DNA of 64,000 nucleotides, taken from assembly GCA_947630135.1 (NCBI GenBank), contig CANRGH010000010.1:1-64000 (forward strand), written 5' to 3'. Of the stretch, positions 60,294-64,000 are shown piece by piece; within the stretch, counting starts at the first letter, position 1; each line of letters begins with the position of its first letter. Source of the stretch: an uncultured Monoglobus sp. (GTDB taxonomy: Bacteria; Bacillota; Clostridia; Monoglobales; Monoglobaceae). The position numbers and the translations under genes were made by a program. The notes beneath the pieces were generated by a model. It was not told where the DNA came from and did no database searches. It saw only the letters and a program-made list of their open reading frames with translations.

Positions 60294-60335
60294 TGATTTA
60301 AACCGAAGCAATCATAATATAAAGAGGTGAATTGT

Positions 60336-60605
60336 ATGACGACGGTCAGCATTCGTTTGGACGATGATATGAAGAAGGATTTGGACAGCATGTGCAGTGA
60401 AATGGGCATGAATATAACAACCTTTTTCATGATATACGCGAAAAAGGCCCTGAGAGACAGAAAAATCCCGTTTGAGATCACCGCTGTCGAACCGTTTTAT
60501 TCGGATAAAAACCTTGAGCATATTGAGGCGGCGAAACAGCAGGTCAGGGACGGCAGAGTTGTTGTAAAATCCATGAGCGAACTGGAGGCAATGGAAGTTG
60601 AGTAG
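60336..60605 (+). CDS. RelB/DinJ family antitoxin
   Basis: This 89-residue protein has an N-terminal ribbon-helix-helix domain (TTVSIRLDDDMKKDLDSMCS) that binds DNA as a dimer, and a C-terminal toxin-neutralising helix (SMSELEAMEVE). AGAGGTG ends 6 nt before the ATG at 60336. It overlaps the toxin gene by 8 nt. RelB-type antitoxin with a YoeB-type toxin is a common swap. Confidence 0.88.
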   Translation: MTTVSIRLDDDMKKDLDSMCSEMGMNITTFFMIYAKKALRDRKIPFEITAVEPFYSDKNLEHIEAAKQQVRDGRVVVKSMSELEAMEVE

Positions 60606-60858
60606 TATCACATTTGCCGAGGACGCGTGGGATGAGTATTTATATTGGCAGCGGCAGGATAAGAAGACCTTGAAAAAGATAAATTCCCTGCTTAAGGAAA
60701 TTCAGAGACAGCCTTTTGTCGGCACAGGCAAGCCGGAGCCGCTCAAAGGCAGTGACGGTTGCTGGAGCCGCAGGATAAACGAAAAGGACAGACTGGTATA
60801 TTTCGTAGAGGACAATAAGGTTATTGTTGTCCAATGTAAAGGACATTATGATGAATAA
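60598..60858 (+). CDS. Txe/YoeB family mRNA interferase toxin
   Basis: This 86-residue toxin cleaves mRNA in the ribosome A site. The YoeB fold is clear from WDEYLYWQRQDKKTLKKIN and GKPEPLKG. The catalytic set is present: Glu47, Arg65, His83 and Tyr84. Two residues are missing from the loop after LKG compared with E. coli YoeB. The start is TTG at 60598, inside the antitoxin 3' end, which keeps toxin yield low. Confidence 0.88.
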   Translation: MSSITFAEDAWDEYLYWQRQDKKTLKKINSLLKEIQRQPFVGTGKPEPLKGSDGCWSRRINEKDRLVYFVEDNKVIVVQCKGHYDE

Positions 60859-60920
60859 AAAAGAGCCCGGGGCCAAAGTCATTCTTCACTTAATGACATT
60901 GAGCCCGGGGCTCTTTTTTT
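60857..60920 (+). terminator. terminator of the toxin-antitoxin operon
   Basis: AAAAAAGAGCCCGGGGC (60857-60873) pairs with GCCCGGGGCTCTTTTTTT (60903-60920) apart from one mismatch, with an inner GTCATT/AATGAC stem. Its right end is shared with the duplicated oadA 3' flank. Confidence 0.8.
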
Positions 60921-61056
60921 ATATCGGGTGGGTCATGTCGTTATAATCCACCATGTCTTGGTCTATTTTGTATTTCTCGGCTTTTCGCCGGCAACCTGAT
61001 ATTTGAGCGTGTTGATGTCAACGCCCGGAATCTTAGTGTCAAACAGGCTGCTCGCT
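60919..61056 (-). pseudogene. decayed partial copy of oadA
   Basis: 60909-60985 matches 62775-62851 (the oadA 3' end and its flank) with few changes, and 60986-61056 matches 63279-63349. The intervening 427 bp are deleted, which shifts the frame. On the minus strand the fragments encode LFDTKIPGVDINTLKYQV and KYKIDQDMVDYNDMTHPI, relatives of the intact gene 1.9 kb away. Confidence 0.88.
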
Positions 61057-61189: not shown

Positions 61190-61960
61190 TCAAAGAATGT
61201 AATCCGTGATACAATCGTACCAATGAACATAGGTTGTGCCGTTTACGGTAAGTCTTTCATTATTCGGCAGCAGTTCGCTCCATTTTTTCTTATAACGCTT
61301 AATGCTCCAGTCATCACGATTAAATCTGCGCCAAAGAATTGTTCTGCCGCTCTTGTCAAGAAACTGCTCGGACACTACTCCGCAATTATAGGTTTCGATA
61401 TTCATGACGCAAACAGTATCGTAGCTTTTGCTGCCGATCGTAACTGTATATCGTCCCACAATATCAAGCAGAAAGTCGTTGTTAACACAAGTAACAACTT
61501 GGCCGGTTCTTTTGATATCGCCTTTCATTTTCAGATTTGTTTCATTTCCGCAGTTATCTTCGCCAAATCCCCAATTATGCAGAAATTCATCACCGTCAAG
61601 AAATGTAATAAAACTGCGAACATCGCCGTCATTTTGGATTGTCGCCAAATAGCGGCAGTGTGTATCTGTCAGTTGAGCAATAAAGCTGCGGCGTATTATA
61701 TCAGACTTATCCGAATAAGATGTTTCTTTTGCTGTTATTTCTACGCCCTCTATACCGTGAACCCTCGCTTTGCCGATAACCTGCATATCAAAAGTGTGGC
61801 TGCATTTTCCGGCCGGAATATCATACATGCCCCAAGACAGCTTTTCGCCGAGCTTTGGAACCAAGAACCATCCCATCAGTTCCTCCCATTTTACCGCGAA
61901 CGGGGCTTCGTTACTCACTTCAATATTATATTTGGGAATAAATTCGGGTAACTTTTTCAT
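61190..61960 (-). CDS. possible separate product: C-terminal domain of the ECF sigma gene
   Basis: The ATG at 61958-61960 (residue 168 of the full protein) lies 8 nt after a perfect AAAGGAG (61969-61975 on the plus strand as CTCCTTT). It would give a 256-residue free domain starting MKKLPEFIPKYNIEVSN. Position at the exact domain border suggests that the domain is made both fused and free, or that a fusion of two former genes is recent. Confidence 0.55.
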   Translation of the reverse strand: MKKLPEFIPKYNIEVSNEAPFAVKWEELMGWFLVPKLGEKLSWGMYDIPAGKCSHTFDMQVIGKARVHGIEGVEITAKETSYSDKSDIIRRSFIAQLTDTHCRYLATIQNDGDVRSFITFLDGDEFLHNWGFGEDNCGNETNLKMKGDIKRTGQVVTCVNNDFLLDIVGRYTVTIGSKSYDTVCVMNIETYNCGVVSEQFLDKSGRTILWRRFNRDDWSIKRYKKKWSELLPNNERLTVNGTTYVHWYDCITDYIL

Positions 61961-62461
61961 ACTGTGTACTCCTTTCGTTAAATCGGCGCGATATGGATAA
62001 TTATTTTTGAAATTCTGTTTCGCGGTGTGCAATCGGCTTTTTACTGTTCCCAAAGGTATACTAAGCTTTTTTGCGATTTCTGATTGTGGCAGTTCCTTCC
62101 AAAAGAAAAGGTAAAGGATCTGTTTATCTTTTTCACCGAGCATATCGAGAGTTTCTCTTACCGTATGAACTTCGGAAACGCCGTATCTGCTGTCTGATAA
62201 CTCTTTTTCGATCAAGAAATCAATCGGAATCTCATACCGTATTGATTTTTTTCTAAAATAATCATTGCATTTATTCCGCGCAATGCTGATGATCCACGCT
62301 TTAAACGACCCCTTATTCTTTAGTTGAGGAAAGCTTTGATAAGCTTTAATAAATACCTCCTGCAAAACGTCGTCCGCATCCGGTTTAGAGTTGATCCGAA
62401 ATCTTACAAAACGTTCAACCGATAATCTTTCCGCATTCAGCAAGTCCTCAAATTTTTCCAC
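61190..62461 (-). CDS. ECF-type RNA polymerase sigma factor with large C-terminal domain
   Basis: This 423-residue protein begins with a complete ECF sigma factor: region 2 (DADDVLQEVFIKAYQSFPQL, residues 28-47) and region 4 (LPQSEIAKKLSIPLGTVKSR, 124-143). Residues 168-423 form one soluble domain with no membrane segment (GWFLVPKLGEKLSWGMYD, QLTDTHCRYLATI, GRYTVTIGSKSYDTV, ending THVHW-like YVHWYDCITDYIL). I cannot name a function for it; sensing or anti-sigma control is a guess. The start is GTG at 62461, after AAAGGAGGTG. A strong internal start exists at 61960. Confidence 0.85.
   Translation of the reverse strand: MEKFEDLLNAERLSVERFVRFRINSKPDADDVLQEVFIKAYQSFPQLKNKGSFKAWIISIARNKCNDYFRKKSIRYEIPIDFLIEKELSDSRYGVSEVHTVRETLDMLGEKDKQILYLFFWKELPQSEIAKKLSIPLGTVKSRLHTAKQNFKNNYPYRADLTKGVHSMKKLPEFIPKYNIEVSNEAPFAVKWEELMGWFLVPKLGEKLSWGMYDIPAGKCSHTFDMQVIGKARVHGIEGVEITAKETSYSDKSDIIRRSFIAQLTDTHCRYLATIQNDGDVRSFITFLDGDEFLHNWGFGEDNCGNETNLKMKGDIKRTGQVVTCVNNDFLLDIVGRYTVTIGSKSYDTVCVMNIETYNCGVVSEQFLDKSGRTILWRRFNRDDWSIKRYKKKWSELLPNNERLTVNGTTYVHWYDCITDYIL
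61969..61975 (-). promoter_or_regulatory. internal Shine-Dalgarno inside the sigma gene
   Basis: AAAGGAG on the minus strand, 8 nt before an in-frame ATG at the border between sigma region 4 and the C-terminal domain. Confidence 0.75.
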
Positions 62462-62542
62462 ATCACCACCTCCTTTGTTTTAAGCGGAAGGTCAAATTTG
62501 AGCATCCCGATTTATGAATGAATAAAACCGGTTTCACTTATA

Positions 62543-62570
62543 TAGACGGATATATAAACCGAAAGGTTCA
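62543..62570 (-). promoter_or_regulatory. ECF-type promoter upstream of the sigma gene
   Basis: On the minus strand TGAACC (62565-62570), 16 bp, CGTCTA (62543-62548). GAAC and CGTC are the typical -35 and -10 cores of ECF sigma factors, so the gene is probably autoregulated. The leader is about 75 nt. The rest of the 323-nt gap up to oadA is AT-rich, with only the hairpins below. Confidence 0.72.
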
Positions 62571-62764: not shown

Positions 62765-62784
62765 CAGAGCCTCAGGCTCTTTTT

Positions 62785-64000
62785 TTATATCGGGTGGGTC
62801 ATGTCGTTATAATCCACCATGTCCTGGTCTATTTTGTATTTCTCGGCTTTTCTCTGCTCGAAGAACTTCACCGCCACCTGCTCGAACAGCGCGTATGACA
62901 GCACGTCCTCAGGCTGCTCCGTCCACTCGGCACATTCCTTTTTGAGCTTTTTGAGCTCGGGCTTTATCAGGTCGGCCGGGCGGCACTTGATAGCCTTCTC
63001 GTTTCCGATGATCTTTTTTCTGAATTTCTCGTCAATTGGCACCGGCGTTTTGCCGTACTCGCCCTTGCAGATGCCCTTGGTCTCTTTGGTGACCATTTTG
63101 TATCTCTCGCCCATAAGCACGTTGAGCACCGCCTGAGTGCCGACGATCTGGCTCGTGGGAGTGACAAGCGGGGGATAGCCAAGGTCTTTGCGAACCTCGG
63201 GAACCTCCTTGAGCACTTCGTCAAGCTTATCCTCCTTGCCCTGCTGCTTGAGCTGCGACACTAAGTTTGACAGCATTCCGCCGGGGACCTGATACTTGAG
63301 CGTGTTGATGTCAACGCCCAGAACTTTGGTGTCAAGCAGGCCGCTCGCGAGATATTTTTCGCGCAGGGGCTTGAAATACTCGGCGATCTCGGTCAGCAGA
63401 TTGAGGTCGATGCCGGTGTCGTACTCGGTGCCCTGGAGCGTGGCGACCAGCGGTTCGGTTGGCGGCTGGGATGTGCCCAGAGCCATAGGCGACAGCGCGG
63501 TGTCAACCACGTCAACGCCCGCCTCGATCGCCTTAAGATACGTCATTGAGGCCACGCCGCTTGTGTAATGCGTGTGGAGCTGTATCGGAACTTTTACCGC
63601 TTTTTTAAGCTTTTTGACCAGCTCGTAGGCGTTATAGGGCGTCAGAAGACCCGCCATGTCTTTTATGCAGATAGAGTCCGCGCCGCAGTTTTCGTATTCC
63701 TTGGCAAGCTTCACAAAGTAGTCGTTGTTGTGGACCGGGCTGATCGTGTACGAGATCGCCGCCTGAACGTGGCCTTTCTCCTTTTTTGTGGCGTTGATCG
63801 CCGTCTGGAGATTGCGCACGTCGTTTAAGGCGTCGAATATTCTGATTATATCAATGCCGTTTGCGATCGACTTCTGCACGAAGTATTCAACCACGTCGTC
63901 CGCGTAGTGGCGGTAGCCCAGCACGTTCTGGCCGCGGAACAGCATTTGAAGCTTTGTCTTGGGCGCGGCCTTTCTGATTTTTCTGAGGCGGTCCCACGGG
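62785..64000 (-). CDS. oxaloacetate decarboxylase alpha / pyruvate carboxylase B carboxyltransferase subunit (5' end outside window)
   Basis: The frame is open to the window edge, so the gene continues beyond 64000 and about 405 codons are visible. Sequences such as LQMLFRGQNVLGYRHYADDV, SICIKDMAGLL and LHTHYTSGVA belong to the carboxyltransferase TIM barrel, with metal ligands Asp and HxH. A helical PYC_OADA domain follows. The protein ends at DYNDMTHPI without a biotinyl domain, so a separate biotin carrier protein is expected. It acts in Na+-pumping decarboxylation or in pyruvate carboxylation; upstream genes would decide which. Confidence 0.9.
   Translation of the reverse strand, partial: PWDRLRKIRKAAPKTKLQMLFRGQNVLGYRHYADDVVEYFVQKSIANGIDIIRIFDALNDVRNLQTAINATKKEKGHVQAAISYTISPVHNNDYFVKLAKEYENCGADSICIKDMAGLLTPYNAYELVKKLKKAVKVPIQLHTHYTSGVASMTYLKAIEAGVDVVDTALSPMALGTSQPPTEPLVATLQGTEYDTGIDLNLLTEIAEYFKPLREKYLASGLLDTKVLGVDINTLKYQVPGGMLSNLVSQLKQQGKEDKLDEVLKEVPEVRKDLGYPPLVTPTSQIVGTQAVLNVLMGERYKMVTKETKGICKGEYGKTPVPIDEKFRKKIIGNEKAIKCRPADLIKPELKKLKKECAEWTEQPEDVLSYALFEQVAVKFFEQRKAEKYKIDQDMVDYNDMTHPI

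Follow-up and report, generated by a model that had tools for sequence, protein, structure and literature searches.

The window, by which we mean the whole 64,000-nucleotide stretch of DNA that was analysed, carries on its reverse strand a gene for an extracytoplasmic function (ECF) type sigma factor joined to a large C-terminal domain (CTD). The gene and the signals that accompany it are as follows:

61190-62461, minus strand: full-length product, ECF sigma factor plus CTD, 423 aa, GTG start
62015-62422, minus strand: sigma region 2 (residues 14-73) and region 4 (residues 101-149), Pfam PF04542 and PF08281, above cut-offs
62469-62476, minus strand: Shine-Dalgarno AAAGGAGG of the full-length product, read from the sequence
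61969-61975, minus strand: internal Shine-Dalgarno AAAGGAG, with an 8-nt spacer to the internal ATG
61190-61960, minus strand: putative free CTD of 256 aa, starting at the internal ATG; its family has not been described before, and its beta fold tentatively resembles LolA/RseB/VioE
62523-62536, minus strand: palindromic operator-like element TGAAACCGGTTTTA over the presumed transcription start, with covarying arms
62543-62570, minus strand: the gene's own ECF-type promoter, with TGAACC (62570-62565), CGTCTA (62548-62543), and a spacer of 16 nt when counted from the end of AACC; homologues have it in the same position

The original prediction described an ECF sigma factor fused to a large C-terminal domain, and the open reading frame and Pfam bear this out, the Pfam matches falling in the sigma regions only. 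The sigma part scores 56 bits against PF04542, 42 bits against PF08281, and 85.7 bits against TIGR02937 (cut-off 42.9), and it has regions 2 and 4 without regions 1.1 or 3, as expected of an ECF factor. Residues 168-423, which make up the CTD, gave zero matches in sequence searches of Pfam, NCBIfam, and the PDB, whether as a single sequence or as a profile. The prediction also placed AAAGGAG, with 8-nt spacing, before an in-frame ATG at codon 168, and this description is exact: the ATG occupies 61960-61958 and opens a frame of 256 aa to the stop. Similarly, an anti-sigma gene was said not to be adjacent, and the flanks agree. Upstream, on the same strand, is an oadA/pycB-like gene (62785-64000); downstream is a convergent pair of small genes (60327-60858), which we take to resemble a RelB/DinJ-type antitoxin and a Txe/YoeB-type toxin.

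Relatives were collected with the CTD as query, both from species genomes (80 of 309 kept) and from whole-genome surveys. In the first 80 loci the CTD always lies in an open frame with upstream sequence, and an AAAGGAG-like site precedes the CTD methionine in nearly all of them. A larger set of 132 comprises all distinct open reading frames in which the CTD is preceded by 150 aa or more. Every one of these 132 distinct homologues has a start codon with a strong Shine-Dalgarno (energy of -8 kcal/mol or lower) at the sigma-CTD junction, AAAGGAG itself being present in 108, and only 6.7% of control windows from the same genes reach this threshold in the same search. The mean energy of the anti-Shine-Dalgarno duplex is approximately -12 kcal/mol at the internal methionine versus -4.3 at 582 other in-frame ATGs; mRNA accessibility at the internal site is barely higher than in the control. 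We looked for loss of the internal Shine-Dalgarno among homologues, the outcome that would speak against a second product, and saw none: all sigma-fused homologues retain the site.

Because the linker often reads Lys-Gly-Glu, conservation of the protein had to be told apart from conservation of the DNA. Lys-Gly in the linker is encoded as AAA-GGA in 72 of 75 cases, versus 7 of the 94 such pairs that lie outside the linker in these genes, and a synonymous-codon permutation gave z = -14.5 over 97 rows, two of which (L120 and L136, both with AAAGGAG and ATG present) are mis-registered and can only weaken the value. Five homologues (L022, L048, L065, L066, and L080) keep the Shine-Dalgarno in another codon phase and over other residues, and in L043 and L067 the ATG has become GTG and TTG, respectively, so that the start codon is kept and the residue is changed. 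In L075 an insertion after the ATG separates off the CTD, and the Shine-Dalgarno and ATG still stand upstream of the insertion. Relatives at 44-56% identity (L124 and L137-L141) retain the internal site, and no part of the protein varies more than the linker, at 36% identity (sigma 68%, CTD 76%). Together, the codon bias, the phase shifts, the alternative start codons, the L075 insertion, the divergent relatives, and the variable linker are hard to explain other than by selection for internal initiation, and so comparison across the family indicates that initiation at codon 168 is almost certainly real. The proposal that one gene makes the CTD both fused and free has, in this way, gained strong comparative support.

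A promoter had been proposed at 62543-62570, and its motif, TGAACC-N16-CGTCTA, proves to be conserved in homologues. The form TGAACCTTT-N12/13-CGTCTAT, or a CGACTAT variant, lies upstream of nearly all those with enough upstream sequence, and an automatic pattern finds it in 106 of 132. Of 12 carriers whose genomes were scanned, 11 have a single copy of the strict motif, which lies at this gene; the twelfth, G802, has a TGTCT variant at the gene and no strict motif. Three genus relatives that do not carry the gene gave zero matches. With one mismatch allowed, the gene's own genome has 5 sites versus 5 for the reversed control, and a longer motif with two mismatches gave no excess over control, bar one strong site in G801, which precedes a second family member, of the CGAC variant. 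A wider regulon was rejected on these grounds, since both exact and relaxed searches stay at control level except for another family member in G801. By this evidence, the only recognisable target of the sigma factor in the genomes scanned would be its own gene; looser targets, invisible to a motif search, may exist.

The two family members of G801 (L026/L190 and L165/L234) have different -10 elements, CGTCTAT versus CGACTAT, and are possibly mutually insulated loops. There is an apparent link between the -10 variant (CGTC or CGAC) and sigma residues 121 and 59, which is no more than suggestive, the sequences being related.

An inverted repeat, GAAANCG-NTTTC, follows the -10 element on its downstream side and forms a covarying palindrome, GAAANCGNTTTC, near the transcription start. 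The distance from its centre to the -10 element is fixed, at the same nucleotide in 78 of 106 promoters and one further in 17. The centres read CCGG, TCGA, ACGT, or GCGC, and the observed pairing was reached by 0 of 5000 shuffles (z 14.5, a value that kinship among the sequences can inflate; the changes nevertheless recur in distant members). An RNA hairpin was considered and rejected, because the two innermost pairs covary yet cannot form in a hairpin, and a DNA site for a dimeric protein is therefore preferred. The palindrome also resembles the cre consensus TGWAANCGNTNWCA, with at most one mismatch in 45 of 89 promoters. Control by CcpA or another LacI-family regulator was dropped despite this match, since four carriers, namely this genome (G000, 99.5% complete), G010, G008, and G801, gave no LacI-family/CcpA protein in a search whose control was positive in 9 of 14 known genomes. 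One candidate for the protein bound there is the gene's own product. As a separate observation, it seems unusual for a gut clostridium of 2.35 Mb, such as G000, to have no detectable LacI-family regulator.

In a tightly related set, 54 of 55 homologues show higher conservation in the CTD than in the sigma part (76% vs. 68%). Even in a divergent set, H68, R103, N136, D166, R170, R212, and W247-Y248-D249-C250 are invariant, many of the invariant positions being polar or aromatic. AlphaFold2 predicts an all-beta domain (pLDDT 81, pTM 0.80), for which the best structural matches are YmcC-like lipoproteins, RseB/MucB, ependymin-related proteins (EPDR1), VioE, and LolA. The best single entry, 3fzx, gives Z 8.2 over 149 aligned residues at 4.3 A, with RseB at 7.4 and VioE at 6.3; models that have no clear match typically reach a best Z of about 8.2, and the fold match is marginal. 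Foldseek returned one match below E 0.001, again 3fzx (3.8e-4). The model thus suggests a fold of the kind that binds hydrophobic ligands, with a similarity at the edge of significance.

The CTD also appears in other company. At L215 and L216, in genomes G1636 and G1596 (both of which have sigma-CTD fusions as well), a distant CTD relative (E approximately 1e-50) has in front of it, in place of a sigma factor, a domain of the CD3324 family (NF040785; score 86.7 bits, cut-off 65), with AAGGAG, 6 nt, and ATG at the junction. Our reading of the sequence is that this CD3324-type domain would have helix-turn-helix (HTH) character. At one further locus, L121, the CTD frame is intact without a sigma factor.

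Two known regulators provide the closest parallel. In TipA, a minimal and autoregulated system for resistance, there are two start codons, and the short form predominates and sequesters the drug (PMC7762955); AlbA has been proposed to work like TipA (PMC6078987). We give an even chance to a self-activating one-gene switch that follows the logic of TipAL/TipAS, in which the fusion would act as the sensor and the free CTD as the working output. We infer the following steps. The long form would be an ECF sigma factor with the CTD as its built-in sensor; the CTD would hold its signal, probably a small compound of amphipathic or hydrophobic nature, in the LolA/RseB/VioE-like beta fold; on this signal, the sigma part would transcribe its own gene from TGAACC-N16-CGTCTA, its sole clearly recognisable target; the strong internal ribosome site would then yield free CTD, probably in excess; and the free CTD would capture or process the ligand, thereby also ending the response. 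The ribosome site of the full-length start is also strong (mean -15.8 kcal/mol), though the start is often GTG or TTG (37 of 81 members), and so we infer, rather than compute, the excess of free CTD.

That the gene is a one-gene switch working without an anti-sigma factor was part of the original prediction, and the solitary gene, the self-directed promoter, and the lack of conserved neighbours support it. A TipA-type design, with free CTD as the output, fits the evidence at least as well as titration. Conservation is higher in the CTD than in the sigma part, the CTD occurs at least once without sigma, and it has a relative on a non-sigma domain. The palindrome at the transcription start implies a further dimeric DNA-binding factor, which lies outside the TipA-like model.

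Titration was the mechanism first put forward: the CTD would inhibit sigma in cis, and free CTD would inhibit or titrate it in trans, with the result that the response is a pulse or the positive loop is buffered. We hold this to be possible, with a limited chance of being right. An anti-sigma gene is absent nearby, ECF41 sigma factors are inhibited by a fused C-terminal domain according to the review PMC8999054, and the internal start present in 132 of 132 homologues suits this scheme too. However, a relative of the CTD sits on a non-sigma domain with the internal start kept, and L121 has an intact CTD without any sigma factor, both of which are unexpected for a dedicated sigma inhibitor. In addition, the AlphaFold2 model of the full-length product (pTM 0.56) shows no confident sigma-CTD arrangement.

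Alternatively, the free CTD could be an enzyme, and the fused copy could report the presence of substrate to RNA polymerase. The many invariant polar residues, found in the divergent set as well, and the presence of an enzyme, VioE, among the fold matches are consistent with this, but the matches are weak and mostly to carriers or sensors of lipids and other ligands (LolA, RseB/MucB, EPDR1), and the genomic context offers no pathway; we regard it as unlikely. Lower still we place self-repression, in which a dimer of the free CTD, or of the fusion, would also occupy the palindrome and repress the promoter of its gene. It draws on the covariation of the palindrome and its fixed spacing from the -10 element, on the fact that promoter and gene alone travel together, and on the LacI/CcpA-like sites in genomes (G000, G010, G008, and G801) that have no detected LacI-family protein. 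An all-beta LolA-like fold would be unusual for DNA binding, however, and an unrelated host repressor could occupy the palindrome, which makes self-repression improbable. Least probable of all is that AAAGGAG is a ribosome pause aiding the folding of two domains, or a by-product of the KGE peptide found in the linker of most homologues, with free CTD absent, because the spacing to the start codon is conserved, a few homologues swap ATG for GTG or TTG, and the site persists in other phases, past the L075 insertion, and at the junction with a different N-terminal domain.

Returning to the TipA-like reading, the likeness to TipAL/TipAS (MerR family, Streptomyces) and the AlbA group lies in one gene with two in-frame starts giving a long regulator and a short form that binds the ligand or, here, would bind it (PMC7762955, PMC6078987), and in a minimal system whose promoter, in the present case, is putatively autoregulated; here, the short form is predicted from comparison. 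The in-frame internal start for a free domain that characterises TipA is found in 132 of 132 homologues, as judged from their sequences. The systems differ in that an ECF sigma factor here takes the place of the MerR DNA-binding domain, in that the CTD has no match to TipAS (PF07739) and is predicted to be all-beta, and in that the palindrome overlaps the transcription start.

Among ECF factors with a fused C-terminal extension, as covered by PMC8999054, the shared traits are the absence of an anti-sigma gene and, presumably, regulation by the extension; the SnoaL, TPR, and cysteine-rich domains of the known extensions are all absent here. The SnoaL-like domain of ECF41/ECF56 is not present, in that the CTD has no Pfam match, singly or over 57 members, and differs in predicted size and topology. 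Similarly, residues 74-100 contain no cysteine and so lack the CXC that ECF238 (CorE-like) factors have between regions 2 and 4, and the cysteines of the CTD are scattered rather than forming an ECF238-type cysteine-rich C-terminus. RseB/MucB and LolA share a weak fold resemblance with the CTD, and RseB/MucB also regulate an ECF sigma pathway; they are, however, separate periplasmic proteins acting on an anti-sigma factor, whereas the present domain is fused to sigma, and no sequence similarity to the CTD was detected. For the cre operators of CcpA and the LacI family, the likeness is the match of the palindrome and the difference is that four carrier genomes gave no LacI-family protein.

ECF factors with regulatory extensions and two-product regulators are already known. 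Literature searches and the consulted passages of the ECF review PMC8999054 yielded neither the combination of the two, nor this family of CTDs, nor its conserved internal start, and those passages do not mention a conserved internal ribosome site for a free extension. The review counts 15 ECF groups that have extensions of unstudied mechanism. In the published ECF classification, the sigma group may already be numbered (ECF262, ECF264, and ECF288 are extension groups of unknown mechanism).

The gene is best read as horizontally mobile. In G008, a relative in the genus, the shared DNA is restricted to 62590-61156, that is, promoter and gene, at a different location. Occurrence is patchy, with carriers in 3 of 38 family genomes, 14 of 391 class genomes including fragments, and 49 of 394 genomes in the order of G803. 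Carrier genomes with titles belong to Clostridia and close relatives and are mostly MAGs from animal guts; a carrier that has been cultured is Acetatifactor muris DSM 23669 (L033). No neighbours are conserved across homologue loci; the most frequent neighbour family, ABC transporters, occurs at 13 of approximately 80 loci, which we judged informally to be near a random gene sample. A resistance, transport, or pathway context was not seen around the gene. Carriage on plasmids, phages, or viral contigs was rejected, as zero CTD copies were found there, and a role in anti-phage defence was set aside because the PADLOC match is at chance level only.

We propose, tentatively and at less than even confidence, a class of solitary mobile regulatory genes in gut Clostridia. 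An ECF sigma factor would target its own promoter only; its modular sensor, always co-produced in free form, would be the true effector, by ligand capture or as an enzyme; the palindrome would be bound by the gene's own product; and the domain would have been re-wired to a CD3324-type regulator with the two-product design kept. If this is true, a one-gene mode like that of TipA exists among ECF sigma factors: one cistron supplies the sensor, the amplifier, and the bulk effector, and internal translation is a built-in part of the switch. For at least one family of extended ECF factors, the present proteins offer an answer that can be tested. In addition, their sharp promoter, with the CGTC/CGAC variant in co-resident paralogues, and the unit size of approximately 1.4 kb would suit synthetic switches, and identifying the ligand could bring to light a chemical signal, or a toxic compound, that gut Clostridia encounter.

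Some further observations concern the DNA of these loci. In the window, an 86-bp piece, corresponding to the 3' end of the oadA/pycB-like gene and its terminator, is present on both sides of the sigma gene (60901-60986 and 62767-62852, 95% identical), and a second short piece, at approximately 60986-61055, resembles the interior of the oadA/pycB-like gene. These flanking pieces are the remains of a duplication or insertion event. Elsewhere, decayed or internally deleted copies were seen at L090, L091, L094, and L127, the one at L094 having residues 1-101 in frame with the last 23 residues. L019 and L036 combine a sigma region 2 from a different lineage with an otherwise typical region 4 and/or CTD, and have a matching AACGTT palindrome upstream; recombination seems to have moved promoter and sigma N-terminus together. 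Finally, long imperfect inverted repeats flank the CD3324-CTD gene at L215 (702-974 and 2156-2427) and L216 (1273-1541 and 2726-2991), with arms of 60-135 nt that are 82-91% complementary, resembling a foldback or MITE-like element with a regulator gene.
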